A model generated the notes under the pieces. That model ran no database searches. It was not told where the DNA came from and worked only from the letters and a program-made list of their open reading frames with translations. A program made the translations under genes and the position numbers. From Martelella mediterranea (GTDB taxonomy: Bacteria; Pseudomonadota; Alphaproteobacteria; Rhizobiales; Rhizobiaceae), in the NCBI RefSeq assembly GCF_021021415.1, contig NZ_JAINWJ010000007.1:62001-126000 (forward strand): DNA of 64,000 bases, read 5' to 3'. Shown piece by piece: positions 9,583-26,251 of this stretch; position 1 is the first letter of the stretch; each line of letters opens with the position of its first letter.

Positions 9583-12500
9583 TCAGAAGGAAATCGCGAA
9601 GTTCAGCCTCGCGGTGTGCGACTGGGCCTCGCTGCCAATCTGTCCTTCGTAGGAGATGCCAAGGGTCGACATCGGCGACAGCGCGAAATCAAGTCCGGCT
9701 TCCAGCACCGCGGCGTCCTCGTCGAGCGGCAGGCCGGAGATCCCGAAAGCCCCGCCACCCGTAAACGCCACGCTCGCCAACGGGGTCGTGTCGCCATAGG
9801 CATGACGCCAGCCGAGACCAACGCGGGCGGTCGCGCTGGTCGCGCCGAGCGCGAAGTCGGTCGCGGCGCGTACGCCAATCGTTGAGAACCAGACATCGCT
9901 GTCGGATGCCGCGACAGACAGCGCCGCGGCGCCGCCCGTCTCGGTGTAGCCATCCGTATGCATGTTGACATAGGCAAGGTTCGCATAAGGCTCGAACGCG
10001 CTCTCGCCGGCATCGATGCGATATCCCGCTTCGGCAAAGGCCTGGAAGGCATTTGCGTCATAGGATGCCGAAAGCTGATCGGAGAACGCGCCGAAGGCAA
10101 CCGAGCGATCGCTGTCGACCTCGTACCAGGTGTAGGCCGCGCCCATCCGGATGCCGATAGCGCCGACTTCACCGCCGCCATAGACGCCGAAATGATAGTC
10201 GTTGGTACTGCCGCTCGCGCCATCATCGCCGCTGAAGCTGGTGCTGGAATAACCGCCCATCGCGCCGATGCGCCAGTCATTGCCGATCGCGCCATCGATA
10301 CCGGCAACCAGACCGCCCAGAGAATTGTCGAAGCCGGCGGCATTGCCGTTACCGTCCATCGAGGTCCAGTTGCCGAGCACTTCGCCCCAGGCGGCAATAC
10401 CGCTGCCGTGGGTCTCGACACCGGTCATCGTCTGATCCTCGCCATAGGCCATGACCGGAACCGGCTTTGCCGCAACACTGTCGAATGCGGCGCGCACGCG
10501 GTTGGTCGCCGCATCGCGGATCAGGTTGGTATTCGCCAGGATCGCTGTCCGCATCGTCGCATTGGACGCACCCGACAACTGATCGAAGGCGTCGCGCGCG
10601 GCTTCCGCGTTCAGCGAGACGACATTGCGGTAAAGCGTATTCGTCGGGCCGAGCGCTTCAACCGCCCCGCCGGTCGCCTGCTGGTTCGGCGTATCCCCGA
10701 TCGCCGCGAAATCGACGTCGTTGCGGATGATCGTGAGATCAACCCGGTCGCCGTAATATTCCAGCGTCGGATACAGGAAGGCGAAGTCCGAGACGACATT
10801 GTCGAACGTGCCGTTGACGCTGCTGGCGGTGAGGATCGTGTAGGTGGCCGCCGGATCGTAGCCCGAGCCCGGCTCCAGGCCGATATGGGCCGCCGTGCCC
10901 CCATTCAGCGTTGCCGTGTCACGCACCGCGATCTGGTCGTGCGCGCCGGTCAGCGGGTCGATCTCGATTTCATAGATCGAGTTCGGCTCGAAGGTGATGT
11001 CGCCGGCAACCGTCAGCGTTCCAGGCGAATTGCCCGGCGATACCGTGCCGCCGGTGCCGACCGTCAGGGTGCCCACGGTTCCCGAGCCGCCGATGAACGC
11101 GCCGTTCTCGATCGTCAGCGGACCACCGAAGGCGCCGTTGACGATGAGCTTGCCGTCATCAATGCGGGTCGCCCCGGTAAATCCGCTATTGTCACCGGTC
11201 AGCGTCAGCGTGGAATTCTCCGACTTGACGATCAGGCCGCTGCCCGAGACCACGCCACCGAATGTCGCATCCTCGGCCACGGCGAAATTCAGGGTGGCGG
11301 ATGCGCCGACATCGAGATTGCCACCCGGCAGGGTTGCAAGCGTCAGGGCGCCTTCGGAGACGGACGTCATGCCGGCAAAGCCGCTGATATCGCCGGCAAG
11401 CGTCAGCGCCGACGCGCCGGATTTCACCAGCATGCCGCTTCCTGTGATCTGGTTCGAAACCACCGTGCCGTCCGCCAATGCGAGTTGCGCCGTGCCGGAA
11501 GAACCGACCGCGATCGCGCCGCCCGGCAGGGACTGCAGGCTCAGCGTTCCTTCCGAAACGGAAGTGGTGCCGGTGAAGTCGCTGATATCGCCGGCAAGCG
11601 TCAGCGTGGTCGCGCCGGATTTCACCAGCGTGCCATTGCCGTTGATCAGGTTGGAGACGGTCGTATCATCCGCCAGAGCGAATTCGACCGTGCCCGCGTC
11701 AACAGCGGTGATCGTGCCGCCCGGCAGCGATTCCAGCCGCAGAGTCCCGTCGGTAACGCCTGTGATGCCGGTGAAACCGCCGATCTTGCCGCTCAAGGTA
11801 AGCGTCGAGGATTCCGTCTTCACGATCGTGCCGCCGCCGATCATCGGCCCGGCATAGTTTGCATCACCCGGCAGGGCGAAAATCAGCCCCGTACCGGATT
11901 TGACGTCGATACCGTTCTTGCCGGGCAGCGTCTCGTAACGCAGCGCACCGGCATAAATCCGGGTCACGCCGATGAAGCCGCTGTGGTCACCCGTAATCGT
12001 CAGGGTGGATTTGCCCTCCTTGCCGAAGGTGCCGTAACCGGTCAGCGCGCCGCCAAAGGTTGCGTCTGCGGCCAGGTTCAGAAGCCCGGTGCCCATGACC
12101 CTCATGTCGCCGCCCGGAACTGTGGCGAGACGCAACGTGCCCGAGGACACATCGGTCAGGCCCGTGAATCCGCTGATATCACCGGTCATGTTGAGCGTCG
12201 ACCCGCCGGATTTCGCAAAGGTTCCGCTGCCGGTGACGGCGCCGCCATAGCTGACATCGCCGCCGTTGAGCTTGAATTCGCCTGTCGCGCCAGCGTCCAC
12301 AGCAAGGTTGCCGCCGATGACGGACTCCATGCGAAGGGTTCCGGCGGAGACCGTCGCCAGACCGGTAAAGCCGGAAAGGTTGCCGCTCAGCGTCGTGGTG
12401 CCCGTGCCGATCTGACGAAGGCTGCCGCCACCGGAAATCGCGCCGGAGAAGGAGGAATCATTGCTGCGGTTGAAGGCCAGCGTGCTTTCGCCGACAAGCA

Positions 12501-14136
12501 ATACGTTGCCGTAACCGATACGGCCCGAGGTGCTGCCATTGCCGACCTGAAGTGTCGAATCCTGAATGACCGTCCCGCCGTTGAAGCTGCTATCGCCGGT
12601 GACCACCAGCGTGCCGCCGCCCATGACGCCGAGCGTGCCGGGCCCGGTGATGACGCCGCCATAGGTCAGAGAATTGGAGCGGTTGAAAACGACGGAGCCG
12701 TAGTTGCCGATATTGCCTATGATCGAGCCGGTCGTCCCGCCATCGCCGATCCGAAGCTGGGAATTGGCGCCTACGCTGGTCGCGCCGAGGAAAGTGTTTT
12801 CGCCAGTGAATGTCTGTGTGCCCCCCATGATGGAGAGGCCGCCATTGCCCGAAATGACACCCGAGAACACGTTGGTGCCGCCATCGATACGCAGGCCGGC
12901 ATTGCCGAGAATGATCTTGCCGCTGCCCGTAAGCGCCTTGAGGGCCGCACCGCTGGCGGCGGAAATATCCAGCGTTCCGTTGACCGTGACAAGGCTGGAA
13001 CTCTGAAGCCGGCCCTGGTTCTCCAGCGCCAGCGTTCCCTGCGAAATAATGGTTTCGCCGGTAAAGTTGTTCATGCCCGAAAGGGTGAGCGTTCCTTCGC
13101 CGGTCTTGGTGAAGCTGCCCGTGCCGGAGATTGTACGGACAATCTTGACGTCGTTGCCGTTGGTGTCGATCGTGCCGCCGCCCGCCTGGAGCGTGATTGC
13201 ACGCATCGAATTCGGATCGAACGCCGCGCCGAACTGAAGCGTGCCGCCATTGAAGGTCAGGGCGCCGGCCGGGTTGCCGAGATTGCTGTCCTGGGAGACC
13301 GAGACGATGCCGTCATTGAAGAATGTGCCGCCGCTATAGGTGTTGGCGCCCGTAAGCGTCAGCGTGCCGCTTCCATCTTTCGTGACGCTGCCCGAGCCGG
13401 AAATGACCGTATCGAATGTCACGTTATCCGTGTGATCGAAGACGACGGTGGAATCGCTCGATGCCAGATAGACCCCCGACGCATTCAGTGTGCCGCTCAA
13501 GCCGCCCTTGCCAATCTTCAGAACGCCGCCTTCGCCGGCGAGCCCGGTTCCGACCTGAACCTGACGGTCTCCCGCGGCCCCCGCATTGACAACGCCGCCG
13601 CCACTGATTTCCATTATGGCCGCGTTGCCGCCGCCAATGGTGAACTGATAGTTGTTGGCGCCCGAAACAGTGAGTGCCGATCCAGTACCGGCGACGATTG
13701 CAGTGCTCTCGCCTGCGGCAGCGTTGGTGGAACCGACAAACAGCCCGTCGACCGTCGCCGTGCCGCCCGAATGGACATGGAACGTTCCGCCGAGGCTGTC
13801 CGCCGTCGCGTTGGAACCGACAGTAACCGCGCCGGTGGCGTCCAAGGTTCCATCGACGGCGACGGTCAGGAGGCCATTGCTTTCGATCAGGATATCGCCC
13901 GCCTCGCCGCCTGGGGTCTGGATGGCGGCCTGCCAAACGCTTGGGCCGCCCCCAATAATGACCGTTTCGCCGGTCACCGGGATTCCGTCGGTCCAGTTTC
14001 CTCCGTCGAACCAGTTGCCGGAGCCTCCCTGCCATGTGTTCGCCGAGGCTGCCTCGGCATCACTGTTGCCCATAACCGCCGCGAAGGCGAGCAAGCTGGC
14101 GCCCAAAAGCAGTGTCGACTTGCGTGTGAACCCCAT
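9583..14136 (-). CDS. large autotransporter with beta-helix passenger and C-terminal barrel
   Basis: A 1517-residue type Va secretion protein. The signal peptide is MGFTRKSTLLLGASLLAF and onward to about residue 30. A long passenger made of autotransporter-associated beta-strand repeats (motifs such as GTLTLTGANTYSGGT) follows, then about seven tandem repeats of roughly 66-70 residues. A linker and a C-terminal beta-barrel of about 280 residues end in ...LNFAISF, the usual terminal Phe recognised by the BAM complex. The start at 14136 is set by GGAGGG five bases upstream. The passenger lacks an obvious protease or lipase motif and is probably an adhesin-type surface protein. Confidence 0.92.
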   Translation of the reverse strand: MGFTRKSTLLLGASLLAFAAVMGNSDAEAASANTWQGGSGNWFDGGNWTDGIPVTGETVIIGGGPSVWQAAIQTPGGEAGDILIESNGLLTVAVDGTLDATGAVTVGSNATADSLGGTFHVHSGGTATVDGLFVGSTNAAAGESTAIVAGTGSALTVSGANNYQFTIGGGNAAIMEISGGGVVNAGAAGDRQVQVGTGLAGEGGVLKIGKGGLSGTLNASGVYLASSDSTVVFDHTDNVTFDTVISGSGSVTKDGSGTLTLTGANTYSGGTFFNDGIVSVSQDSNLGNPAGALTFNGGTLQFGAAFDPNSMRAITLQAGGGTIDTNGNDVKIVRTISGTGSFTKTGEGTLTLSGMNNFTGETIISQGTLALENQGRLQSSSLVTVNGTLDISAASGAALKALTGSGKIILGNAGLRIDGGTNVFSGVISGNGGLSIMGGTQTFTGENTFLGATSVGANSQLRIGDGGTTGSIIGNIGNYGSVVFNRSNSLTYGGVITGPGTLGVMGGGTLVVTGDSSFNGGTVIQDSTLQVGNGSTSGRIGYGNVLLVGESTLAFNRSNDSSFSGAISGGGSLRQIGTGTTTLSGNLSGFTGLATVSAGTLRMESVIGGNLAVDAGATGEFKLNGGDVSYGGAVTGSGTFAKSGGSTLNMTGDISGFTGLTDVSSGTLRLATVPGGDMRVMGTGLLNLAADATFGGALTGYGTFGKEGKSTLTITGDHSGFIGVTRIYAGALRYETLPGKNGIDVKSGTGLIFALPGDANYAGPMIGGGTIVKTESSTLTLSGKIGGFTGITGVTDGTLRLESLPGGTITAVDAGTVEFALADDTTVSNLINGNGTLVKSGATTLTLAGDISDFTGTTSVSEGTLSLQSLPGGAIAVGSSGTAQLALADGTVVSNQITGSGMLVKSGASALTLAGDISGFAGMTSVSEGALTLATLPGGNLDVGASATLNFAVAEDATFGGVVSGSGLIVKSENSTLTLTGDNSGFTGATRIDDGKLIVNGAFGGPLTIENGAFIGGSGTVGTLTVGTGGTVSPGNSPGTLTVAGDITFEPNSIYEIEIDPLTGAHDQIAVRDTATLNGGTAAHIGLEPGSGYDPAATYTILTASSVNGTFDNVVSDFAFLYPTLEYYGDRVDLTIIRNDVDFAAIGDTPNQQATGGAVEALGPTNTLYRNVVSLNAEAARDAFDQLSGASNATMRTAILANTNLIRDAATNRVRAAFDSVAAKPVPVMAYGEDQTMTGVETHGSGIAAWGEVLGNWTSMDGNGNAAGFDNSLGGLVAGIDGAIGNDWRIGAMGGYSSTSFSGDDGASGSTNDYHFGVYGGGEVGAIGIRMGAAYTWYEVDSDRSVAFGAFSDQLSASYDANAFQAFAEAGYRIDAGESAFEPYANLAYVNMHTDGYTETGGAAALSVAASDSDVWFSTIGVRAATDFALGATSATARVGLGWRHAYGDTTPLASVAFTGGGAFGISGLPLDEDAAVLEAGLDFALSPMSTLGISYEGQIGSEAQSHTARLNFAISF
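11150..12400 (-). repeat. tandem repeats coding passenger units of about 66-70 residues
   Basis: The protein motif GDISGFTG...SVSEGTL...LPGG recurs about seven times. At DNA level one pair is nearly identical: the 26 bases at 11383-11408 recur exactly at 11581-11606, a period of 198 bases (66 codons). Such repeats can expand or contract by recombination, changing passenger length. Confidence 0.8.
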
Positions 14137-14353
14137 TTCACCCTCCAAGAAAAAGATCGTTAATTTCGGCTTACGGGCTAATAAAATGTTTGCAAGACTT
14201 CACGCACCTTTGGGCGCGAAATTATGTTAATGTTACCTAATTGACACATTTTTTACTAAGTATGGCGCGACTAAAAGTGAACGCACCCATACCTGCCGCT
14301 GCCGCTGAGAGCCCACAGCGCATCAGGCGATGACGCCGGTGGGTGGTTTGGCG

Positions 14354-15139
14354 TCAGCGCGCCAGCCAGCCGCCGTCGACCGCCAGGATATGGCCGTTGA
14401 CATAGGCGGCGGCGGGGGAGGCGAGGAACAGGGCCGCGCCGGCGATATCCTCCGGCTTTCCCCAGCGCCCGGCGGGAATGCGCTCGAGGATTTGCCGCGA
14501 ACGGTCTTGGTCTTCGCGCAACGCCTTGGTGTTGGCCGTGGCGATATAGCCGGGCGCGATCGCGTTGACCGTGACCCCGTGGGGCGCGAGTTCGTTGGCA
14601 AGCGCCTTTGTCAGGCCGGCGACGGCGTGCTTCGAAGCCGTGTAGCCCGGCACGCGGATGCCGCCCTGAAACGACAGCAGCGACGCGGTCATGATAATAC
14701 GCCCGGAGCCCGCCGCCTGCATCCGCCTTGCCGCGGCCTGAGACAGGAACCAGACGGCGTCGAGATTGGCCGAAAGCACCGCCCGCCAGTCGCTTTCGGG
14801 ATGCTCGACTGCATCGCCGCGCCGGATCGTGCCGGCATTGTTGACCAGGATCGAGATATCGCCGCCAAGGCCATCCGAAGCGGCCGCGAGCAGCTTTTCC
14901 GCGCCGGCGGCGTCAACCGCGCCGAGATCGGCGGACACGCGCGCGAAGGCGCGGCCGGTCTCGCCCACAAGCCGGGCGGTCTCATCGCCCGGGTTGGAGT
15001 GCACGGTGATCGCCACATCCGCCCCGGCCTCGGCCAACGCGAGGGCAATCGCCTGACCGATGCCGCTCGCCCCGCCGGTGACCAGCGCGCGCTGGCCTTC
15101 AAGGCTGAACTGGTGTTTAAGATAGGCTTCGATGCTCAT
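14354..15139 (-). CDS. kduD: 2-dehydro-3-deoxy-D-gluconate 5-dehydrogenase (KduD-type SDR)
   Basis: Cytoplasmic short-chain dehydrogenase that reduces 2,5-diketo-3-deoxygluconate to 2-keto-3-deoxygluconate. It has 261 residues: cofactor motif TGGASGIG at 21-28, NNAG at 100-103, catalytic Ser153, Tyr166 and Lys170. KduD-specific blocks are SFQGGIRVPGYTASK, IPAGRWGKPEDIAGAA and the C-terminal YVNGHILAVDGGWLAR, nearly as in the E. coli enzyme. The ribosome site GGAGAG precedes ATG 15139. kduI lies about 8 kb away in the same locus, supporting uronate catabolism. Confidence 0.93.
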   Translation of the reverse strand: MSIEAYLKHQFSLEGQRALVTGGASGIGQAIALALAEAGADVAITVHSNPGDETARLVGETGRAFARVSADLGAVDAAGAEKLLAAASDGLGGDISILVNNAGTIRRGDAVEHPESDWRAVLSANLDAVWFLSQAAARRMQAAGSGRIIMTASLLSFQGGIRVPGYTASKHAVAGLTKALANELAPHGVTVNAIAPGYIATANTKALREDQDRSRQILERIPAGRWGKPEDIAGAALFLASPAAAYVNGHILAVDGGWLAR

Positions 15140-15160
15140 GGTCGGCTCTCCGGGTGATTG

Positions 15161-16054
15161 ATGACATTACGACAGGATTTGTGTGAAAAGTTCGAGATCG
15201 GCGCGCATCCGCTGACGCTCAACGAATGCATCGGCATCCAGCATGAGGGGTTGGTGCTGGAACGGCTGACCTTCGCCACCAGGGACGGCGAAAGCGTGCG
15301 CGGCTTTCTTCTGCGCCCGCCGGGCGAGACGCCGGTTCCCGCCATTCTCTACATCCACGCCCATGGCAATGCCTATGATATCGGCGCGGACGAACTGCTG
15401 TCCGGCCGCAGGGCGCTGCTCTCGCCGCTCGGCCCGGAATTCGCGCGCCGGGGTTATGCGGTGCTGATGGTCGAGCTGCCGGCCTTCGGCGCGCGCTCCA
15501 GCCCCGGCGAAAGCGCCCGCGCCAAGGCGGCGCTGTGGAACGGCAAAAGCCTTGCCGGGCAGATGCTCGGCGAGCAGGCCGCAGCCTTCGACTGGCTGGC
15601 ATCCCGCCCCGATATCATCGCCGACCGGATCGCCGTTTTCGGCATCTCCATGGGCGCGACCTTCAGCTACTGGCTGGCGGCCGCCGAGCCGCGCATCGCG
15701 GCCAGCGCGCATCTGTGCGCCTACGCCGATTACGCCGGCCTGATCGACGCCGGTAATATCGACCTCCACGGCATTTATCTCACCGTGCCCGGCCTTCTCG
15801 GCCTCGCCGGCAATGGCGAGATCGCCGGGCTGATCGCGCCCCGAGCGCAGCTCATCGGCGTGGGCGATCTCGATCCGCTGACACCACCCCCAGCCTTCGA
15901 GACTGCCTTCGCCCAGACGCGCCGCGCCTATGAAGAGGCGGGGGCCGCGAACCGTCTTGTTCTCGTGCACGAGCCGGAGGCCGGCCATGTGGAAACGCCG
16001 GCCATGCGCGCGGCGGTGTTTGCCTTTCTCGACCGTCATATCGGCCTCGCCTGA
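15161..16054 (+). CDS. alpha/beta hydrolase, probable carbohydrate or lactone esterase
   Basis: A 297-residue cytoplasmic hydrolase of the dienelactone-hydrolase / acetyl-xylan-esterase-like group. The nucleophile elbow is GISMGA (Ser near residue 165), and the oxyanion block is YIHAHGNAYD. An Asp in GVGDLDPLTPP and a His in EAGHVETP complete a plausible Ser-Asp-His triad. It is divergent from kduD with only 21 bases between start codons. It probably removes an ester (acetyl or methyl) from an imported sugar; that role is inferred from context only. Confidence 0.75.
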   Translation: MTLRQDLCEKFEIGAHPLTLNECIGIQHEGLVLERLTFATRDGESVRGFLLRPPGETPVPAILYIHAHGNAYDIGADELLSGRRALLSPLGPEFARRGYAVLMVELPAFGARSSPGESARAKAALWNGKSLAGQMLGEQAAAFDWLASRPDIIADRIAVFGISMGATFSYWLAAAEPRIAASAHLCAYADYAGLIDAGNIDLHGIYLTVPGLLGLAGNGEIAGLIAPRAQLIGVGDLDPLTPPPAFETAFAQTRRAYEEAGAANRLVLVHEPEAGHVETPAMRAAVFAFLDRHIGLA

Positions 16055-16058
16055 CTGC

Positions 16059-16133
16059 GAAATGCTCTATCTGTTTGTTTTTGCGCGCGTCCGAACGGAA
16101 AACCGATATCCACTTTTCCTGAACACGCTCTAG
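16059..16133. repeat. rhizobial-type palindromic intergenic repeat
   Basis: Between two convergent genes, this stretch begins with the GCTCTATCTGTTTGTTTTTGCG pattern region and ends ACACGCTCTAG. Inside it GGAAAA (16096-16101) and TTTTCC (16114-16119) form an inverted repeat, flanked by GCGT (16087-16090) and ACGC (16125-16128). The layout matches a repeated palindromic element that I recall as common in Rhizobiaceae intergenic regions; the family name is not verified here. Confidence 0.6.
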
Positions 16134-17206
16134 TTCACCCGCTGCTCGTCGCTGTTGAACAGATGCACCCGCTCGGGATCGAAGCGCAGCGAAACATGGG
16201 TCGCCTCGGGATCGACCGCGCCGCCGCCGAAAACGGCCACCAGCTTCTGCCCGCCATCGGTGTTCGCATGCACGACGGTTTCCGGGCCAAGCGCCTCGAT
16301 CAGCGTAACCTCCGCCTCGATCGCATCCTCGCCGCCCTCCGAGAAATCATGCGGGCGGACCCCAAGCGTCGCGCTTTCGCCGGGCTTCAGCCCGCTATCT
16401 TCGCAGGCAATCCGGGCGACGAGCCCGCCCGGTCCCTCGACATGAACGGCATCGGCTTCGACCGACGTGACGGTGACCGGGACGAGGTTCATGCGCGGCG
16501 CGCCGATGAAGCCGGCAACGAACAGGTTCGCCGGTCTGTGGAACAGGTCCAGCGGCTTGCCGATCTGTTCGATCCTGCCGGCGCGCATCACCACGATCCG
16601 GTCGGCCAGCGTCATCGCCTCGACCTGATCATGGGTGACGTAGACCATGGTGGTCGTCAGCCGCTCGTGCAGGCCCGAAAGCTCGGCGCGCATGGTGATG
16701 CGCAGTTCGGCGTCGAGATTGGAGAGCGGTTCGTCGAGCAGGAAGGCCGTCGGATTACGCACCACCGCCCGGCCGATCGCCACGCGCTGCTTCTGCCCGC
16801 CCGAAAGCTGACCCGGACGGCGGTCGAGATAGGGCCCGATTTCCAGCATGCGCGCCGCTTCCTGGATGCGGCTCTCGATTTCCGGCTTCGGCATATGGAT
16901 GTTTTCCAGTCCGAAGGCGAGGTTCTGGCGCACCGTCATATGCGGATAGAGCGCGTAGGACTGGAACACCATGGCAAGCCCGCGATCGGCGGCCGATGCC
17001 TTTGTAACGTCCTTGCCGTCGATGATGATCTCGCCGGAGGTGGGCTTGTCGAGGCCGGCGATCAGCCTGAGCAGCGTCGACTTGCCGCAGCCCGACGGGC
17101 CCACCAGAACCGTGAACTCGCCATCCGGAATATCGAGACTGATATCGTGCAGGACCTTGAGTTTGCCATAAGCCCGATCAACCTTGTTCAGCGTTATCTG
17201 TCCCAT
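16130..17206 (-). CDS. ABC transporter ATP-binding protein (UgpC/MsmK type, CUT1)
   Basis: A 358-residue ATPase that energises the adjacent sugar importer. Walker A GPSGCGKST is near residue 36, the ABC signature LSGGQKQR near 134, Walker B AFLLDEPLSNLD near 152, and the switch His in VTHD near 190. A C-terminal MOP/TOBE-like regulatory domain (about 240-358) is typical of CUT1 ATPases. It is the last gene of the operon that starts with the GH105 gene at 25108, nine bases after the permease stop. Confidence 0.93.
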   Translation of the reverse strand: MGQITLNKVDRAYGKLKVLHDISLDIPDGEFTVLVGPSGCGKSTLLRLIAGLDKPTSGEIIIDGKDVTKASAADRGLAMVFQSYALYPHMTVRQNLAFGLENIHMPKPEIESRIQEAARMLEIGPYLDRRPGQLSGGQKQRVAIGRAVVRNPTAFLLDEPLSNLDAELRITMRAELSGLHERLTTTMVYVTHDQVEAMTLADRIVVMRAGRIEQIGKPLDLFHRPANLFVAGFIGAPRMNLVPVTVTSVEADAVHVEGPGGLVARIACEDSGLKPGESATLGVRPHDFSEGGEDAIEAEVTLIEALGPETVVHANTDGGQKLVAVFGGGAVDPEATHVSLRFDPERVHLFNSDEQRVN

Positions 17207-17215
17207 GATGGCACC

Positions 17216-18268
17216 CTATTTCAGTCCGGAACCGGCAATGCCGGAAGTGATGAAGCGTTGCAGGAAGACGAAGACCAGCACGACCGGGATCATGGTCACC
17301 ACCGTCATCGCCAGGATGTAATGCCACTGGACATTCAGCTCGCCGGCATAGGTGTTGAGCCCGACCTGCAGCGTGTAGACCTCCTTCGAGGACAGCACGA
17401 CCAGCGGCCAGAGGAAGTCGTTCCAGCGCCAGACCACCGAGAAGATCGCAAGCACCGCCAGCGCGGGCGCGGCCAGCGGCAGCACGATGCGCCAGTAGAT
17501 CTGCCATTCCGACGCATTGTCCATGCGCGCGGCATCCAGCAGCTCGTCGGGGATGGTCAGCATATACTGGCGCAGCAGGAACACGCCCGTGGGCGTCGCT
17601 ACCGTCGGCAGGATAACGCCCCAGAGCGAGTTGTAGAGGCCGACGGCGCTGACCACCGAGTAGAGCGGCACCAGCAGCACCGACAGCGGCACCATCAGCG
17701 TGCCGACAATCAGCATTAGCACCGCATCACGCCCCCGGAACTTGTATTTCGAAAGCGCAAAGGCCGCCATCGAGTTGGTGATCAGGGTGATCAGCGTGGC
17801 CATCAGCGTCACGAACACGGAATTGCGCAGATAGAGCAGGAAGTCATTGCTCTCCAGCGGCGTGACGTAATTCTCCGTGGCAAAGCCGATCTCGCGCACC
17901 GGCGTGCGGTCGGCGATATTGACCTTGACGATCTCGCCGGGATTGGCGGGATCGACCATTTGCGCGACGATGCCGATGCGGCGCACTTCCGCCATCACCG
18001 GCGTCGAGCCGTCCTCCAGCGTCACGTGGTAGAGGTTAAGCGGCTTGTCGTAGCCTTCGACCTCCACCTGCTGGCTGACATAGGGCAGGATGGTGGGCGG
18101 GAACTCGGCAAGCTGCGCCGGCGACTTGAAGGATGAAAACACCAGCCACAGCGCCGGGCCGAACATGATGATCAGTCCGCCGATGAGCCAGACCCAGGTA
18201 ACGATATCGGTCCAGTGCCAGCCATCGCCGCCGCGCCGGCGGAACAGGAACTTCGAAACGGCACTCAT
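17216..18268 (-). CDS. CUT1 sugar ABC permease, MalG-like
   Basis: A 350-residue inner-membrane permease with about six helices and the EAA loop near DAARMDNASEWQIYWRIVLP. Compared with usual 270-300 residue MalG-type subunits it has an enlarged periplasmic loop of about 90 residues between helices 1 and 2 (roughly residues 50-140). Its start overlaps the stop of the MalF-type permease by four bases (ATGA). It pairs with the genes at 18265 and 16130 and the binding protein at 19302. Confidence 0.92.
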   Translation of the reverse strand: MSAVSKFLFRRRGGDGWHWTDIVTWVWLIGGLIIMFGPALWLVFSSFKSPAQLAEFPPTILPYVSQQVEVEGYDKPLNLYHVTLEDGSTPVMAEVRRIGIVAQMVDPANPGEIVKVNIADRTPVREIGFATENYVTPLESNDFLLYLRNSVFVTLMATLITLITNSMAAFALSKYKFRGRDAVLMLIVGTLMVPLSVLLVPLYSVVSAVGLYNSLWGVILPTVATPTGVFLLRQYMLTIPDELLDAARMDNASEWQIYWRIVLPLAAPALAVLAIFSVVWRWNDFLWPLVVLSSKEVYTLQVGLNTYAGELNVQWHYILAMTVVTMIPVVLVFVFLQRFITSGIAGSGLK

Positions 18269-19287
18269 TCGCGTGCTCCCTTCTGTTCGTTGCGCCGCCC
18301 AAGGCCGAGCTGCACCAGCGTGAGCACCACCAGCACCAGCCCCATCATGATCGATGCGGCGGCCGCAAGGCCCGGATTGCGCAGCAGCGAGGCGAAACCG
18401 ACCTCGTAGATATACTGGGTCAGATACATGGTGGAGGTGCCCGGTCCGCCGCCAGTCAGCACATAGACCTCGTCGAAGATCTGCACGGCGCGGATCAGCG
18501 ACAGCACGATCACCACCAGAAGGTTGGGCATCAAGAGCGGCAGCGTGATGCGCCAGAACACCCGCGCCGGCTTGGTGCCGTCCATCTCGGCGGCCTCGTA
18601 GAGATCGCGCGGGATCGCCTGAAGTCCCGCAAGCAGGATCAGCGTGAAGAAGCCCATATGCGCCCAGACCGACACGGAGACCGCAGCCGTGAAGGCCGGC
18701 AGGCGCTCGGTCAGCCAGTCATGGGTATCGGCGCCGAATGTGTAGAGAACATAGTTGAGCAGGCCCTGACGCTGCAGGATCCAGCGCCAGATCAGGCCGA
18801 CGACAACGGGCGACAGCAGCACGGGGAAAAAGAACACCGCCCGCCAGAAGCCCCTGCCCGCGATCTTGCGGTTGAGGATCAGCGCGGTGATCATCGCCGT
18901 CAACGTCATCAGCGAGACCTGGAAGAACACGAAGATCGCGGTGTTCTGCGCCGCCTTCCAGAACAGGTCCTCGCGGCAGGTGCCCGGGTCGAGGTAGTTT
19001 CCGCAATCGAGAAGCCGGCCATATTGTTCAAGGCCGACAAAGGTCCGGTCGGCCAGGAAATAGGCCGAGCCGGAGGTCATCGAATAGAAGAAGTTCATGA
19101 CCAGCGGGATCAGCACGAACACGCCGAAGATCGCCATGTTCGGCGCCAGGAAAAACGCCGCCATGCCGCCGGTGCCCGTGGCCCGTTGCCAGACCTTGAG
19201 CGGCGGGTTCAAAAGCGCGGCCAGCCACATGACCGGCGCCGTGATAACGGAGCCGGTCATGCGCTTTATGTCGGACAGGTTCGCCAC
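18265..19287 (-). CDS. CUT1 sugar ABC permease, MalF-like
   Basis: A 340-residue permease with six to seven predicted helices and the EAA motif region YEAAEMDGTKPARVFWRITLP. A periplasmic loop contains two cysteines (LLDCGNYLDPGTCRED) that may form a disulfide. It starts 14 bases after the binding-protein stop and overlaps the next permease. The substrate is inferred from the locus to be an unsaturated uronate oligosaccharide. Confidence 0.92.
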   Translation of the reverse strand: MANLSDIKRMTGSVITAPVMWLAALLNPPLKVWQRATGTGGMAAFFLAPNMAIFGVFVLIPLVMNFFYSMTSGSAYFLADRTFVGLEQYGRLLDCGNYLDPGTCREDLFWKAAQNTAIFVFFQVSLMTLTAMITALILNRKIAGRGFWRAVFFFPVLLSPVVVGLIWRWILQRQGLLNYVLYTFGADTHDWLTERLPAFTAAVSVSVWAHMGFFTLILLAGLQAIPRDLYEAAEMDGTKPARVFWRITLPLLMPNLLVVIVLSLIRAVQIFDEVYVLTGGGPGTSTMYLTQYIYEVGFASLLRNPGLAAAASIMMGLVLVVLTLVQLGLGRRNEQKGARE

Positions 19288-19301: not shown

Positions 19302-20564
19302 CTACTGCTGAACCTTGTCGGCGATATCCTGGTCGATGCGCGTCCAGGCTTCGTCGAGGGTCAGTTCACCGGCCATGACCTGGCTGATGCGGGTGACGAG
19401 CGCGCCGTAATAGGCCGATGCCCACTTCCATGCCGGCAGCGCATCGGCGGCGGGCAGCGTTTCCGCCGAGGACTTGACGAAGGCATCGAGCGCCGGGCCG
19501 ACATTCTTGTCGTCGGTATCCCAGTTCAGGCCGCCTTCGGCAACCACGCCCTTGTGCGCCGGCAGGAACAGGGTGCGCTCGGAGAACTCCTTCACGATCT
19601 CGGGGCTCGCCAGATATTCCATGACCTTGGCGACGTCTTCCGGGTTCTGGGTGTATTTGATGCCGACGAGTGCCGCGCCGCCCTTGAGGCCCGAGCAACC
19701 GACCGTGCCGCAGGGCGAACCGATCGCCACCCAGTCGAAGCCGTCGCCGATCTTGGTCGAGAGGTTCGCGACCTGCCAGCTTCCCGAATAATAGAACGGG
19801 ATCTGGGCGTTGATGAAATCATCGGCGGCCGCACGATAGGTGGAGCCGGCGGCCGATACCCAGGTATCCTTCAGCATCAGACCGTCATTGGTCCAGTCGA
19901 CGAGCTTGGTCGCAAAGGTCTTGGTGCCGTCATCGACCGGCGCCGGCATGCCATCGGGGCCGATATAATTTGCGCCATAGGAAACGTTCGGACCGGAAAT
20001 GCGGTGGCCGGAACGGTCGATGGCGAAGGCCGCCGCCGTCTGCTGGCTCTTGGCGACTTCGGCCGAAGCATTGACCCAGTCATCCCAGGTGGCCTTGTCG
20101 CCCGGCAGATCGACGCCCGCCTGCTCGAACAGCGTCTTGTTGGCGAAGCCGCCGGTGAGCGTGAGCTGGGTCATGAAGCCGGTAATGGCATCGGAGCCGT
20201 CGGGACGCATCCAGTCGGCCTGGGCGCCGAAATTTTCCTCCCAGTAACCGGGATCGGAAAGATAGGGGCGAAGGTCAAGCCAGTGATTGGCCAAAGCTTT
20301 GAGGTCGGTGACGCGAGCGATATCGGGGCCCTGGCCGGCTTCGAGCTGGATCGGAAGCTGTTCCTGGATCACCTTGTAGGCGACGTTGTCGAGCGTGACG
20401 TTGATATCCGGATTGTCCTTCTGAAAGCGGTCGATAAGGTCCTGCATGACCTCGCCCTCGACGCCGTCCGAATACCACATGATGCGCACATCGCCCGCAA
20501 ACGCCGATGTCGAGGCCATGAACCCCGCCGCGACGATGGACAGAATGCTGACAGCATTTTTCAT
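19302..20564 (-). CDS. CUT1 extracellular sugar-binding protein
   Basis: A 420-residue periplasmic binding protein (SBP family 1). The signal peptide is cleaved near SAFA-GD (residue 23-24). The mature protein opens VRIMWYSDGVEGEVMQDLI and has the family's aromatic and acidic patches and a Cys pair in GSPCGTVGCSG. It captures the substrate for the permeases at 18265 and 17216. The gene follows the 834-residue protein by 109 bases, a gap that may hold an extra ribosome site or RNA-processing signal boosting its expression. Confidence 0.94.
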   Translation of the reverse strand: MKNAVSILSIVAAGFMASTSAFAGDVRIMWYSDGVEGEVMQDLIDRFQKDNPDINVTLDNVAYKVIQEQLPIQLEAGQGPDIARVTDLKALANHWLDLRPYLSDPGYWEENFGAQADWMRPDGSDAITGFMTQLTLTGGFANKTLFEQAGVDLPGDKATWDDWVNASAEVAKSQQTAAAFAIDRSGHRISGPNVSYGANYIGPDGMPAPVDDGTKTFATKLVDWTNDGLMLKDTWVSAAGSTYRAAADDFINAQIPFYYSGSWQVANLSTKIGDGFDWVAIGSPCGTVGCSGLKGGAALVGIKYTQNPEDVAKVMEYLASPEIVKEFSERTLFLPAHKGVVAEGGLNWDTDDKNVGPALDAFVKSSAETLPAADALPAWKWASAYYGALVTRISQVMAGELTLDEAWTRIDQDIADKVQQ

Positions 20565-20673
20565 ATCATTTTCCTCCTCTTAACCGGGCCTTCGCCCTTG
20601 CCGATCATCGGCATTTGTTACCCACCCCACGGCAGGCGTCTCCAGAGGGCTCTCCCTGCCCTCCGGCAAAACC

Positions 20674-23178
20674 TTAATCCCGGAACGTCCGCGCCGCGCC
20701 CGCGATCGTCCATTCCGACGGGTCGAGCCTGCGGCCCTCCGCCTCGACAGAGCCATCGGCCCCGAAGCGGACCCTGCCATATTCAGGATCGTCGACCAGA
20801 ATATCGCCATTGGCCTCGTCCACAAGACTGAGGGTTGCAAAATCCTTCTCGATCTCGTTTGCCTTGTCGCACTCGGCCATGCGCACGATCCATGTCGCCT
20901 TGCGGCCCGGCGCGCGCAATTCATTGCCCGCCGTCGGTCCGGTCGCGACAAGCGCCAGCCCGGCATCGACCTTCAGCAACACGCAGCCGCCACCGCTCAC
21001 CGCCAGCGCCGTATCGCGGCCGATGCGGGTCTCGTCGAAGACGGATTGCGGGAACCAGCAATGAGTGAAGTCCGGCTGTTCCTCGGCACATTCGAAACGC
21101 GCAATCGCCAGGCCACGATACTGGTGAACGCGCGGCAGCGTGCCCGAGCCGCCCCAATAGGATGGCCGCCCATAGCCCGAATGCAGCACCTCGCCCGGGT
21201 GGTTGATCCAGATGGTCGCATCCGGATTGTCGCCAAGGCGCAGATGCAGCACCGTTTCCTGATAGCCCCACTGGTTCCAGCGATAGGCCGCGGCGGTACC
21301 AAGCGCGTACGACGCCGTCTTGTAGTGATAAAGCCGCGCGAACCTGTCCTGTCCCTGGGCGAAGGTCCATTCATGCCCTTCGCTGCCGGAAACCGAGGCG
21401 ATGACCGCAAGCTCTTCCGGTATCCGCAAACCGTGATCGCGCAGGCAAAGCGCCAGTTGCGGCAGGGCGTGGAAGCGCATGCCGTAATTGCCGCGCCCCC
21501 AGATCATCCGCGCAATGCCGGAAAGCTCAAGCGTCCGTGAGGCCCGGAGCGTATGTTCATAGGAACGGCCCTGCGCGCCCGTCATGACGCCATGGTGGGC
21601 CGAGCGGGCGAGGATCTCGACAAGCCGGATGATGGCCTTGCCCGCGCGCTCCGCTATGTCACGGTCCGGCGCCAGCGCATAGAGCGCGCACAGCCCCTTC
21701 AGGTCGATCGGGAAATAGGGCGCGGAATTGAACTCCGCCATCTCCCATTTTTCGAAGTGATCGAGCCAGGCCCGCACCCGTGCGGCGCCGATGACGGATT
21801 GCTCATTGCCCGTTCGCTGCGAGCGCGCGAAACGCGCCCCGGGCAACATATCGCCGGCGAGATAGGCGGCCGTATGAAACAAGAGCGCGTGGTTTTCCGA
21901 GAAATACCACTGCACGTCATTGCCGGGCTCATCCATCCAGTAGCGATAGTTGAGGATGGCCGCATCGACGCGGTCGCGGACCTTGGCCCCGATATCATCG
22001 CCATAGGCGGCGCGGCACCAGAGCAGCGGAACCAGAATGAAATCGGCGCAGTCGTGGCAATCCTCGATCGCCGGCAGCGCGCTTTCGATCATGGCGTCGG
22101 TCTCATCGCCGCTCATGCCGGTGGCTAGGCGGGCCAGCGCGCGCACCGTATCGGCCTCGGCGTGGTTCGCGACTTCGCCGAGCGCTTCGGTGATGCGCTC
22201 GGGGAGGTTTTCCGGAGCCTTGCCCTGACGCGCCACATGGCAGAGTTCGACACCGAAGACGCGCGAGACAGCGTAATCGCCGCGCGCCAGCGTCACCTTG
22301 AAATGGCGGAAATCGGCGGGCAGGTCCGCAGTATCGGCGACCGCGAGCCGGACCGATCCGGCATCAAGCGTCCGCTCGAAGCTCAACGGCTTCTCGATCG
22401 ACATGAAGTCGCCCTCGATTACCACCTTCGCCGCCACATCGACCGGCAGGCCGGTATCGGCGACGAGCGCCACCTCGCCCGCGCCATAGGCCGGCTTTTC
22501 GAAATGCATGGAGGCGAGCATGGCTTCCATCGCATCGGCGACGGGAGCCTCGACCGGGATCGGCAGGGCGTGTTCGACCGCCGGACCGGACAGATAATCG
22601 AGCTGGAAATAGTAACGCGCATCGCGCTCGGCCAGATCGTCAAAGACGATGCCGATAACATTGTCGCCCGCTTCAAGCGTGACGGCGAACTCTTCGATGG
22701 TCTCGAGATTGCGGCCGTAGGGCGCCATGAAGCCGACCTCGCGGCCATTGACGAACAGCACCGCGCCGCCGCAGGTGCGCAGCGCCAGCCGGGCCTCGCC
22801 GGCAGATGCGGCGCGGATTGTCGTTTCCGCGAAGGTTTTAAGCTCGGTGGCGCGGAACCAGAAGCCCGACAGGTCGACGCGCGGCGAGCCGAAGGGCAGC
22901 CAGGTGCGCGTAAGGTCCGGCCTTGTCTCGCCGATCACGGGCCGCTTGCCGCGCCGCTCTGCGGCAAACTGCGTCCGGCACGGATATTCGTGCGGGATGA
23001 AATTCTTGTGCTTGGTCAGGAAAAAGAAGGGATCCATTTCCCCCTTCATCGGCTGATCGGGCACGTCGTAGCGCGCCTCTTCCGTCGCCGAAAGCCGCCA
23101 GTAAACGATCGGCGCGCCCGCTGCAAGCGGACGCCGGAGCGCCCTGTCCGTCTCCATCTGGTTCAACGCCGAATTCAT
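20674..23178 (-). CDS. 834-residue protein of unknown function in the kdu operon; possible glycosidase or lyase
   Basis: I do not recognise this family. There is no signal peptide, so it is cytoplasmic. Residues about 60-230 look like a beta-sandwich (lectin- or rhamnosidase-like: ALRTCGGAVLFVNGREVG, then ...GDNVIGIVFDD). About 250-350 is a second beta-rich region. About 360-610 is helical with aromatic/acidic motifs (WYFSENHALLFHTAAYLAG, FNSAPYFPIDLKGL), as in (alpha/alpha) toroid glycosidases and polysaccharide lyases. The C-terminus is beta-rich. The start at 23178 overlaps the kduI stop by four bases (ATGA), so the two are translationally coupled. A role in cleaving an imported unsaturated oligosaccharide is inference. 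Confidence 0.8.
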   Translation of the reverse strand: MNSALNQMETDRALRRPLAAGAPIVYWRLSATEEARYDVPDQPMKGEMDPFFFLTKHKNFIPHEYPCRTQFAAERRGKRPVIGETRPDLTRTWLPFGSPRVDLSGFWFRATELKTFAETTIRAASAGEARLALRTCGGAVLFVNGREVGFMAPYGRNLETIEEFAVTLEAGDNVIGIVFDDLAERDARYYFQLDYLSGPAVEHALPIPVEAPVADAMEAMLASMHFEKPAYGAGEVALVADTGLPVDVAAKVVIEGDFMSIEKPLSFERTLDAGSVRLAVADTADLPADFRHFKVTLARGDYAVSRVFGVELCHVARQGKAPENLPERITEALGEVANHAEADTVRALARLATGMSGDETDAMIESALPAIEDCHDCADFILVPLLWCRAAYGDDIGAKVRDRVDAAILNYRYWMDEPGNDVQWYFSENHALLFHTAAYLAGDMLPGARFARSQRTGNEQSVIGAARVRAWLDHFEKWEMAEFNSAPYFPIDLKGLCALYALAPDRDIAERAGKAIIRLVEILARSAHHGVMTGAQGRSYEHTLRASRTLELSGIARMIWGRGNYGMRFHALPQLALCLRDHGLRIPEELAVIASVSGSEGHEWTFAQGQDRFARLYHYKTASYALGTAAAYRWNQWGYQETVLHLRLGDNPDATIWINHPGEVLHSGYGRPSYWGGSGTLPRVHQYRGLAIARFECAEEQPDFTHCWFPQSVFDETRIGRDTALAVSGGGCVLLKVDAGLALVATGPTAGNELRAPGRKATWIVRMAECDKANEIEKDFATLSLVDEANGDILVDDPEYGRVRFGADGSVEAEGRRLDPSEWTIAGAARTFRD

Positions 23179-24011
23179 CTGATCTCCCTGATCGCAACCG
23201 GATCGACATCGGTATAGGCCTGATTTTCGCCGGTCATGCCCCAGACGAAGGCATAGGGCCCGGTGCCCGCGCCCATATGGATCGACCATGCCGGCGAGAT
23301 CACGATATCGCCATTGGCGACGACCAGATGGCGGGTATTGTCGGGACGGCCCATAAAATGGAAGACGCGGTCTTCGTCACCGAGATCGAAGTAGCAATAG
23401 GCCTCCATGCGCCGCTCGTGGAGATGGGGCGGCATGGTGTTCCAGATACTGCCCGGCGCGGGATCGGTGATCCCCATCAAAAGCAGGCAGGAGGGCGCGA
23501 CCTCGGGGTGGATATACATGCGCAGCTCGCGCTTGTTGGATTTCGCCTCGTCACCCATTACCAACGGCTTGGACTCGGCCCGCTTGATCAGGCGATGCGG
23601 AACATCCGCGCCGGCGGGCACCGAATTCATGTAGAACCGCGCCGGCGGCTTGCCGGCATCGGCGCTTTCTAGCGTTACGGTTTTGGCGCCCCGGCCGACA
23701 TACAAGATGTCGCGATTGTCGAGTTCATGGCGTTCGCCATCAACTGTGATCGTGCCCGGGCCGCCGAGATTGGCGATCCCCATCTCGCGGGCGTCGAAAA
23801 ACGCCTCGGTGCCAACCTCGGCCCCATCGCCGAAGGAGAGCGCGGAGGAAGTCGGCACCGCGCCGCCGACGATCATGCGGTCGACATGGGTATAGGCAAA
23901 CCGGATTTCGCCGGGCGTGAACAGGCCTTCCACCATGAATTCGTCGCGCAGCCGCGCCGTGTCCATGTTGTCGATATCGGCAGGCGAAGCGCCATAAAGC
24001 GTTTTCAGCAT
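23175..24011 (-). CDS. kduI: 5-keto-4-deoxyuronate isomerase
   Basis: Cupin-fold zinc enzyme that converts 4-deoxy-L-threo-5-hexosulose uronate to 2,5-diketo-3-deoxygluconate, the step before KduD. Its 278 residues equal the E. coli length. Metal-ligand motifs are visible: HLHERRMEAYCYF (two His and a Glu) and a later His in PAWSIHMGAGT. It starts seven bases inside the end of the GH105 gene. Cytoplasmic. Confidence 0.96.
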   Translation of the reverse strand: MLKTLYGASPADIDNMDTARLRDEFMVEGLFTPGEIRFAYTHVDRMIVGGAVPTSSALSFGDGAEVGTEAFFDAREMGIANLGGPGTITVDGERHELDNRDILYVGRGAKTVTLESADAGKPPARFYMNSVPAGADVPHRLIKRAESKPLVMGDEAKSNKRELRMYIHPEVAPSCLLLMGITDPAPGSIWNTMPPHLHERRMEAYCYFDLGDEDRVFHFMGRPDNTRHLVVANGDIVISPAWSIHMGAGTGPYAFVWGMTGENQAYTDVDPVAIREIR

Positions 24012-25108
24012 GCTTTGCTCATCCTTTCATTGCTGTGATGCAGGCCTTCGGCAAGACACAGGATCGCAAGCGCCTGGCCATAGCCTGTCGGCTGCACCGG
24101 AATATCGCGATAGAACTGCAGATCGTGACCCATGCGGGTGCCATAGGAGACGTTGGAGACCACGCCGTCATCGCTGATATTTTTCATGACAGCATTGAGC
24201 GCCCGCAACCCCGCCGCCTCGCAGCCTTTCGGCCCGAGGCCCATGCGCGCGGCCTTCATCAGCCCGAAGCCGAAGCCGGCCGTCGCCGAGATTTCCTCAT
24301 AGGAAGACGGGTCGTCGACCAGCGTGGTCCATGCGCCCGACGCCGTCTGGAACTTCAGCAGCGCCTCGATCTGGGTCTGAAGCACGCCGAGAAGATAGGC
24401 CTCCACCGACGGCGACAGATCGCAAAGTTCGATCAGTTCGAGAATACCGACCGTGATCCAGGCATTGCCCCGGCCCCAGAGCGCACCGGCGAAATTGTGC
24501 CGGCCGGCAAAGGTCCAGCCGTGATACCAGAGCCCGGTTTTCGGATCGGCGAGATAGCGGGCATGAACCAGAAACTGGCGCTCCGCCTCATCGACAAAGC
24601 GCCGCTCGCCCGATGCCTGACCGTAGGAAGCCAGGAATAGCGCGACCATGAACAGCGTGTCGTCCCACAATTCATTATCGTTGATCTTGTCGGAAACATC
24701 GTGCTGGAAGCCGCCTTCCGGCGTTCGCGGCATGTCGGAAACCACCCGCTCGGCCCAGTCGCGAAGAACCGCCTCGTAGCGCGGCTGGCGCTTGTGACGC
24801 CAGATTTCGCTGAGCGCCAGCATCGGCGCGGTGGTGTTGACGTTCATCTTCGGCAGACCCGCCTCGATCCGGCGGTCGTACCAGTCTTCGAGGATTTTCA
24901 GATGCGCGTCGTCGCCGGTGTGCCGCCACAGGCGCGCGATCCCGTAGAGTCCGACGCCCTGCGGCCATTCCCAACTGTCGAAGCTGACATAATCGCCGGG
25001 CGTACCGTCGAGATTGGGCTCGTTGAAGCGCCCGTCGTGACGCAGTCCCGTCATCCCGCGCACCAGCGCCGACAAGCTGTCGGAAATCTGATCGGCCGTT
25101 ATCGGCAT
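24005..25108 (-). CDS. GH105 unsaturated glucuronyl/rhamnogalacturonyl hydrolase
   Basis: A 367-residue (alpha/alpha)6-barrel enzyme that hydrates the 4,5-double bond and releases the terminal unsaturated uronic acid from di- or oligosaccharides. The catalytic Asp is in ELWDDTLFM (residue 149-150). Other family blocks are WEWPQGVGLYG and WGRGNAW. It has no signal peptide and acts on imported sugar. It is the first gene of the operon, facing a divergent LacI regulator. Pectin rhamnogalacturonan, ulvan and glucuronan fragments all fit, so the natural polymer is undecided. Confidence 0.92.
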   Translation of the reverse strand: MPITADQISDSLSALVRGMTGLRHDGRFNEPNLDGTPGDYVSFDSWEWPQGVGLYGIARLWRHTGDDAHLKILEDWYDRRIEAGLPKMNVNTTAPMLALSEIWRHKRQPRYEAVLRDWAERVVSDMPRTPEGGFQHDVSDKINDNELWDDTLFMVALFLASYGQASGERRFVDEAERQFLVHARYLADPKTGLWYHGWTFAGRHNFAGALWGRGNAWITVGILELIELCDLSPSVEAYLLGVLQTQIEALLKFQTASGAWTTLVDDPSSYEEISATAGFGFGLMKAARMGLGPKGCEAAGLRALNAVMKNISDDGVVSNVSYGTRMGHDLQFYRDIPVQPTGYGQALAILCLAEGLHHSNERMSKAC

Positions 25109-25157: not shown

Positions 25158-25182
25158 TTGCGCAATTTGCAAATTTTTTGCA
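25158..25182. promoter_or_regulatory. putative LacI-family operator between kdu operon and its regulator
   Basis: The 96-base divergent gap contains two palindromes: TTGCGCAA at 25158-25165, and TGCAAA (25168-25173) with TTTGCA (25177-25182) around a TTT centre. Their position between the GH105 start and the LacI gene makes them the best operator candidates for both transcripts. Confidence 0.5.
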
Positions 25183-25204
25183 GTTTTGGCGCAAACAGGA
25201 GGCA

Positions 25205-26251
25205 TTGACGATTCACGGCAAGCGCGGCAAGCCAAACCGACGGGTCCGGCTGGAGGAAATCGCCCGCAATTGCGGGGTGTCGGTATCGACCGCATCGCGG
25301 GCGCTTGCGGGCACCGGCGGGGTGAAGGACGAGTTGCGGGCAAAGATCGTCGAGACCGCGCTGGCGCTTGGCTATGTCAACCCGACATCGGCCGCCGGCC
25401 GCCGTATTATCCTGGCGACCTCCAGCGTCGCGATGATCGACCACCAGCGCAACCAGTTCACCTACCACGTTCTCGACGGCCTCAACGAACGGGCCGAGGC
25501 GCTCGGCATCGAACTGGTCACCCGCGCGGTCGCCACCCCCGAGGATGAGGCGCAGCTTCTGGCCGAGGGCGAGGCGGACGCCTCCGTTGCCGGCTGCCTG
25601 TTTCTGACGCTGGACGATGCGCAGGTGCTGACCCGTTCGGGCGGATTTTCCAAGCCGATCGTGCTGATCAATGGCGACGATCCGGCGATGCGCCACTCCA
25701 GCGTGACGCCCTGCAACCGCTCCGCAGCGCGGCTCGCCGCCGACCACCTTCTCAATCTCGGCCACCGCCGTATCCTGTTCCTGATGCATCCCGGCCGGCG
25801 GACGATCGAGCGCCGCTTCGAAGGCTGGCGCGATGCGCTGCGCGCTCGCGGCATCGAGGATATCGACGATCTCGTGGTGACGGTCGATGACTGGCTGCCG
25901 GAACTTGCAAGCCGCGCGATCGCCGACCGGCTGGAAAAGCGCGGCGCCGATTTCACGGCCGTGCTGACCGCCGGCGACAGCCTGGCCTATGGCGCGATGC
26001 TCGCCATCCAGCAGGCGGGCTATCGCGTGCCGGAGGATTTTTCCGTAGTTGGCATGGACGATCTACCACTGTCTGGCTTTTCCGATCCGCCGCTGACGAC
26101 AATGCATATCCCGATGCGCCACATCGGCTCCGCTGCCCTCAGCCTCCTGCTCGATGATCTCGGCGTCACCCGCCTGCCCGCGCGACGCGTGGAGCTCGCC
26201 TGCTGGCTGGTGGAACGCGCTTCAACCGGGCCCGCGCGACCTGGCCGGTAA
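25205..26251 (+). CDS. LacI-family transcriptional regulator
   Basis: A DNA-binding repressor of about 348 residues. The N-terminal helix-turn-helix is VRLEEIARNCGVSVSTASRAL, followed by a periplasmic-binding-protein-like ligand domain (AADHLLNLGHRRILFL, FSVVGMDDLPLSGF). No ATG or GTG fits near the N-terminus. The in-frame TTG at 25205 is only two bases beyond AGGAGG (25197-25202), so the true start is uncertain. Divergence from the GH105-kduI operon suggests it controls that operon. Confidence 0.85.
   Translation: MTIHGKRGKPNRRVRLEEIARNCGVSVSTASRALAGTGGVKDELRAKIVETALALGYVNPTSAAGRRIILATSSVAMIDHQRNQFTYHVLDGLNERAEALGIELVTRAVATPEDEAQLLAEGEADASVAGCLFLTLDDAQVLTRSGGFSKPIVLINGDDPAMRHSSVTPCNRSAARLAADHLLNLGHRRILFLMHPGRRTIERRFEGWRDALRARGIEDIDDLVVTVDDWLPELASRAIADRLEKRGADFTAVLTAGDSLAYGAMLAIQQAGYRVPEDFSVVGMDDLPLSGFSDPPLTTMHIPMRHIGSAALSLLLDDLGVTRLPARRVELACWLVERASTGPARPGR

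Follow-up and report, generated by a model that had tools for sequence, protein, structure and literature searches.

A stretch of 64,000 nucleotides from Martelella mediterranea (contig NZ_JAINWJ010000007.1, positions 62,001 to 126,000; in the following the window, with positions counted from its first letter) contains an otherwise readable uronate operon with a widespread 'hypothetical protein' gene in its middle, which raises the question of what this gene, here named ORF834, contributes to the pathway. We consider it likely that ORF834 encodes a cytoplasmic uronate-oligosaccharide lyase, an activity predicted here, which would make the unsaturated end for the GH105 enzyme encoded in the same operon. 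The frame runs on the minus strand from an ATG at 23178 to a stop codon at 20674 (834 codons) and overlaps kduI by four bases (23175-23178), in agreement with the initial annotation, which had described, with no strand given, an 834-residue frame overlapping kduI by four bases between a GH105 gene and ATP-binding cassette (ABC) transporter genes. A mechanical list of open reading frames (ORFs) gave a longer frame, to 23289, at the cost of a 115-base overlap with kduI. Given this long overlap and the annotated starts of three relatives, which correspond roughly to residues 7, 16, and 17 of the shorter version, 23178 is the likelier start.

The AlphaFold2 model of ORF834 (predicted local distance difference test 86.5, predicted template modelling (TM) score 0.87) reproduced the order of domains read initially from the sequence, namely a beta-sandwich, a second beta region, a toroid, and a beta C-terminus. 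Chou-Fasman averaging over the alignment conflicted with this later model and was discarded. The gene and its predicted domains are as follows:

20674 to 23178, minus strand: ORF834 (P0001), predicted cytoplasmic oligo-uronide lyase, 834 amino acids, stop codon included
22561 to 23124, minus strand: predicted N-terminal beta-sandwich, residues 19-206, a jelly roll like the GH2 sugar-binding domain (AlphaFold2)
22243 to 22476, minus strand: predicted second beta domain, residues 235-312 (secondary structure of the model)
21397 to 22236, minus strand: predicted alpha toroid, residues 315-594 (AlphaFold2 and core folded alone)
20677 to 21381, minus strand: predicted C-terminal antiparallel beta domain, residues 600-834 (AlphaFold2 and core folded alone)

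In the structural comparison of the core folded alone, the best 50 rows listed comprised human dermatan sulfate epimerase and, in the other 49, uronate lyases; as the lists were limited in length, further families may be structurally close as well. In the AlphaFold2 models, after VIA re-alignment, the toroid is followed by an antiparallel beta-sheet domain, as the fold group demands. Thus, from the original wording 'glycoside hydrolase or lyase', the lyase gained support and the hydrolase became less favoured, the predicted fold speaking for the former. A glycoside hydrolase trimming saturated sugars off an already-unsaturated oligosaccharide, before or after GH105, would come near the view of the initial annotation and would suit the GH2-like jelly roll at the N-terminus, several invariant acidic residues (D376, D379, D416, E428, E482, D492, and E753), and the general knowledge that KduI/GH105 operons often process products of outside lyases. 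Foldseek with the whole model also placed GH2 chains on top, at TM 0.10-0.16. VIA re-alignment, however, confined this likeness, including that to GH2 beta-glucuronidases, to the N-terminal domain, and the model has a helical toroid at residues 315-594 and no TIM barrel, so that ORF834 was rejected as a GH2 hydrolase; with lyases and one epimerase filling the best rows for the core, we regard the trimming hydrolase in general as unlikely. The jelly roll itself probably shapes the substrate site or an oligomer.

Among 93 aligned rows (82 distinct sequences), 48 positions were invariant, 41 of them in the core, and these included a single Asn-Tyr-His triplet at lyase-like spacing, formed by N429, Y488, and H660:

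21889 to 21894, minus strand: codons of Asn429-His430, predicted carboxylate neutraliser and possible base, invariant in 93 rows
21715 to 21717, minus strand: codon of Tyr488, predicted acid/base, invariant, first residue of helix 488-502
21199 to 21201, minus strand: codon of His660, in an NHP motif of the beta domain, predicted base or Tyr activator, invariant

In the model, helix 428-444 is predicted to start at N429-H430 and helix 488-502 at Y488, with H660 placed just after strand 655-659. In the published lyase sites given in PMC12088678 (Table 4, with PL23 and PL8 2Q1F included) and in PMC11848413, from which the site of PL33 was taken, the Tyr follows the first catalytic residue (Asn, His, or Asp) by 53 to 63 positions and is itself followed, 130 to 166 positions later, by the beta-domain His. 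In ORF834, the step from N429 to Y488 (59) falls inside the published range, while that from Y488 to H660 (172) falls outside it. When residues were shuffled over the invariant positions, such a triplet arose in 2.4% of 20000 tries, with spacing windows (53-60 and 130-175) that were chosen after the data had been seen. In six neighbour families, where positions conserved in 93% of rows were used, the same test found none, and it also found none in a heparinase-type family chosen to serve as a positive control. Altogether, Asn429-His430, Tyr488, and His660 lie at spacings close to those of the catalytic triplet of toroid lyases and may play the corresponding roles. A protein of the lyase fold that is non-catalytic or accessory would agree with the lack of any catalytic domain model over cut-off in Pfam or NCBIfam and with an activity that is so far a prediction, but invariant polar residues of the active-cleft kind, kept from rhizobia to an archaeon, are typical of an enzyme, and we hold this explanation to be highly improbable.

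Compared to known systems, the predicted core resembles the folds of PL35 GAGases, PL12 heparinase III, PL17 Alg17c, PL15 Atu3025, and PL21 heparinase II over about 380-430 residues. Its invariant Asn(-His), Tyr, and His follow one another as they do in the toroid lyases of glycosaminoglycans and alginate, with comparable spacing, at 6-11% identity in structural alignments; unlike these lyases, ORF834 carries the extra GH2-like jelly roll and a fixed GH105-KduI gene order, and lacks a signal peptide and any match to Hepar_II_III_C or DUF4962. The PL8 xanthan, hyaluronate, and chondroitin AC lyases have a His nine residues before the Tyr, where ORF834 has the non-conserved Glu479, and differ further in that the beta-domain His is invariant in the ORF834 family. 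GH105/GH88 unsaturated uronyl hydrolases, which also possess a helical toroid, act in the same pathway, but are encoded by a separate neighbouring gene, and PF07470 was absent from the Pfam matches of ORF834.

In line with the initial failure to assign a family, Pfam gave one match of 12.5 bits, under its cut-off, and none over it, NCBIfam gave no match, and thus no single characterised family was clearly matched in these searches. Searches of the PDB by phmmer and profile reached a best E of 0.16 and matched no lyase chain at E up to 10. Among 20 other members, weak Pfam matches to PA14 (3/20, best E 0.017), BetaGal_gal-bd (3/20, 0.052), and MalQ_N (2/20, 0.00035) were seen, which point to beta-sandwich domains. 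Neither Hepar_II_III_C and DUF4962 (of the PL12, PL15, PL17, and PL21 type) nor Lyase_8 (PL8) appeared among the matches of ORF834 and these 20 members at E up to 1. A Lyase_8 profile had no matches in 61 genomes, where its controls were silent too, which makes this search uninformative. With hhalign, the ORF834 family reached not even 1% probability against three heparinase-type groups, PL15-like, PL17-like, and another Alginate_lyase group, GH105, or five unrelated neighbour alignments. Since the method, which joined heparinase-type groups with each other at 99.8% and the PL15-like group with one of them at 91%, also missed some lyase kin (heparinase-type versus PL17-like at only 1.8%), this blank says little on remote kinship. 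ORF834 belongs to a known fold group, from whose known members it differs in its sequence family, its N-terminal domain, and its location in the cell; a listed PL family of CAZy, such as PL33, PL35, PL39, or a newer one, may already include it, as family status was judged here by Pfam, NCBIfam, and PDB sequence matching. The protein was not named in titles and abstract openings of open-access PMC articles, for which its accession was not used as a query.

Relatives were encoded by at least 143 stretches of genome contigs (tblastn), and the best 80 of these 143 (60-72% identity) all belong, judging from the names in the record titles, to what we take to be Alphaproteobacteria. A match to the family occurred in 14 of 61 genomes, with 24 copies, 12 at 56-100% identity and 12 paralogues at 31-35%, and in phylum samples in 6/299 genomes by single-sequence search and 10/397 by profile search. 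At least 200 plasmid records matched as well, including Catenovulum (Gammaproteobacteria) and Haladaptatus (Archaea), and among the matches listed the product was 'hypothetical protein' wherever one was given. The distant archaeal relative has no counterpart to roughly the first 300 residues of ORF834, including the jelly roll; therefore, the toroid and the C-terminal domain represent the common core. Viral contigs yielded 35 pattern matches with no relative among them, and paralogue L100 had no DNA match in E. coli genomes.

The assignment of ORF834 to a uronate operon was borne out by the conservation of its neighbourhood. Within 6.5 kb in the 80 loci, some of which stop at contig ends, we found GH105 in 79, KduI in 77, a solute-binding protein in 80, the two permeases in 78 and 77, the ATPase in 77, LacI in 80, and KduD in 11; L080 lacked GH105 and KduI, and L029 and L078 lacked KduI. 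Seventeen further loci (L104-L120) contained GH105/GH88 in 14 cases, with none seen in L105, L112, and L114. The type of importer varies, with ABC in nearly all 80 loci, a TRAP transporter in Pseudosulfitobacter and L118, a relative of the same genus, and an MFS transporter in Catenovulum, and in Gemmobacter the gene run continues into kduD and a sugar kinase. Among the 61 genomes, 13 had both an ORF834-family gene and a GH105 gene of the NF051900 type, one the former only, none the latter only, and 47 neither (Fisher p 2e-12, a value that ignores kinship, 12 of the 14 genomes being of one genus). One genome of the same genus (G003) lacked both genes, and one of another genus (G026) had both. 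Twenty of the 24 copies lay 253-1180 bases from a GH105 gene over cut-off, two beside a partial GH105 match, and two without any, and 20/28 NF051900-type GH105 genes adjoined an ORF834-family copy. The partial matches (model positions 1-94, open frame of 160 amino acids), beside paralogues in G002:C44 and G008:C28, are perhaps decaying copies.

This close pairing with GH105 suits a lyase better than a uronate C5-epimerase of the type of human dermatan sulfate epimerase 1, which would make the imported oligosaccharide acceptable to another enzyme. That protein shares the predicted fold of the core at 9% identity, but acts at the polymer level, whereas ORF834 sits in a bacterial catabolic operon, and an epimerase would leave the source of unsaturated uronate for GH105 and KduI unexplained, as no scanned gene of the operon is labelled lyase; we therefore consider it very unlikely.

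The genes around ORF834, presumably co-transcribed in the one-strand order GH105, kduI, ORF834, solute-binding protein, permease 1, permease 2, and ATPase (minus strand), are as follows:

25187 to 26251, plus strand: LacI-type regulator, divergent from GH105, start provisional (Pfam/NCBIfam scans)
24005 to 25108, minus strand: GH105/GH88 hydrolase, constant partner of ORF834 (PF07470, 293.5 bits; NCBIfam NF051900 'BglB')
23175 to 24011, minus strand: kduI, 5-dehydro-4-deoxy-D-glucuronate isomerase (NCBIfam, 375.3 bits, cut-off 250)
19302 to 20564, minus strand: ABC transporter solute-binding protein, with signal peptide (Pfam SBP_bac_1)
18265 to 19287, minus strand: ABC permease 1
17216 to 18268, minus strand: ABC permease 2
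16130 to 17206, minus strand: ABC ATPase, UgpC type
14354 to 15139, minus strand: KduD-like dehydrogenase (TIGR01832, 337.1 bits, just under the cut-off of 338.85)

NCBIfam labels the GH105 gene 'beta-galactosidase BglB' (NF051900, 560.8 bits, cut-off 420), a name that may mislead, since the operon and the nearest solved structures (3qwt, 3pmm, and 4xuv) indicate GH105. At 25158-25194, between GH105 and the divergently read LacI gene, the palindromes TTGCGC/GCGCAA and AATTTGCAAATT form a possible LacI operator, and a hairpin at 20642-20666 with 9-nt arms (89% paired), which separates the ORF834 stop from the start of the solute-binding protein gene, possibly sets transcript levels. An esterase-like gene at 15158-16054 (plus strand, Peptidase_S15/DLH Pfam matches), flanked by the ABC ATPase and KduD genes, faces the operon, and some of the relatives keep it close by. 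A minus-strand ORF at 9583-14148 (1521 amino acids, repetitive beta-type sequence) looks autotransporter-like by eye.

With regard to cell location, the N-terminus of ORF834 has no hydrophobic stretch: within its first 45 residues, 12-residue windows reached a Kyte-Doolittle mean of at most 1.08, compared to 2.29 for the neighbouring solute-binding protein, so that the lack of a signal peptide reported initially was confirmed and a secreted lyase was set aside. Over 59 alignment rows, the mean was 0.47 and the highest value 1.77; the rows of relatives start at the first aligned residue and thus do not cover every true N-terminus.

Taken together, the pathway may proceed as follows. A short acidic oligosaccharide holding a 4-O-linked hexuronate (glucuronic acid (GlcA), galacturonic acid, or an epimer) would be imported and lodge in the cleft between the toroid and the beta domain of ORF834, where Asn429, with His430, would neutralise the carboxylate and Tyr488, with His660, would take the C5 proton and protonate the leaving 4-O sugar. 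This beta-elimination would leave a 4,5-unsaturated uronate at the new non-reducing end, which the neighbouring GH105 would remove and KduI and KduD would carry on to 2-keto-3-deoxygluconate. Import and the steps of GH105, KduI, and KduD follow from known families; for ORF834, we infer the elimination, the residue roles, the order of steps, and the substrate class. The initial annotation had ORF834 acting on an imported unsaturated oligosaccharide, an order that is probably reversed: based on its predicted fold and the conserved Asn-His, Tyr, and His, and with an unsaturated end as the expected substrate of GH105, ORF834 more likely makes than consumes the unsaturated sugar. Other contigs of its own genome carry one Hepar_II_III_C gene and one Alginate_lyase gene as alternative possible sources of unsaturated uronate, and no Pectate_lyase_4 match was found in this genome. 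In G012, a PL15-like gene (DUF4962 and Hepar_II_III_C, L157 3456-5870), accompanied by genes of an ABC transporter, lies at a distance of about 10 kb from ORF834.

Since the scanned genes of the main operon include no glycosidase besides GH105, a short and simple oligosaccharide fits as the substrate. Paralogue loci harbor additional glycosidases, namely GH28 (assigned by Pfam in L109 and from its similarity to L109 in L115), GH38 alpha-mannosidase (L114 and L158), and GH3 (L111). Rha-GlcA-Gal caps (rhamnose, GlcA, galactose) of plant gums are one candidate substrate. As the intracellular enzymes for xanthan oligosaccharides described in PMC10881899 include GH38, GH3, and GH88, xanthan-like side chains are another candidate for the paralogues. 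The paralogue clusters also contain PHP-domain-like proteins, which score above the Pfam cut-off in L110 and slightly below it in L114 and L158, and a family 5 solute-binding protein (L114). Judging by their gene content, the clusters of L110, L111, L114, and L158 may represent a second, richer pathway around the same lyase-like protein.

The ORF834 family is real, well conserved, and unannotated, with a predicted lyase fold. A broader proposal, for and against which we see the balance as even, is that it forms a new polysaccharide lyase (PL) family, whose members would cleave oligo-uronides in an exo-acting manner in the cytoplasm and combine a jelly roll of the GH2 type with the core of a toroid lyase. 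Together with its dedicated GH105, it would constitute a portable two-enzyme module in which the unsaturated end is made and then removed, combined with importers of the ABC, TRAP, or MFS type and with genes for GH28, GH38, or GH3, and opening acidic side chains, e.g., Rha-GlcA-Gal of plant gums or Man-GlcA-Man (Man, mannose) of xanthan-like polymers, inside the cell and not outside. If ORF834 is a lyase, the missing step of the operon would be named, a source of cytoplasmic unsaturated uronates explained, and an architecture of GH2 domain and lyase core added to the toroid lyase group.
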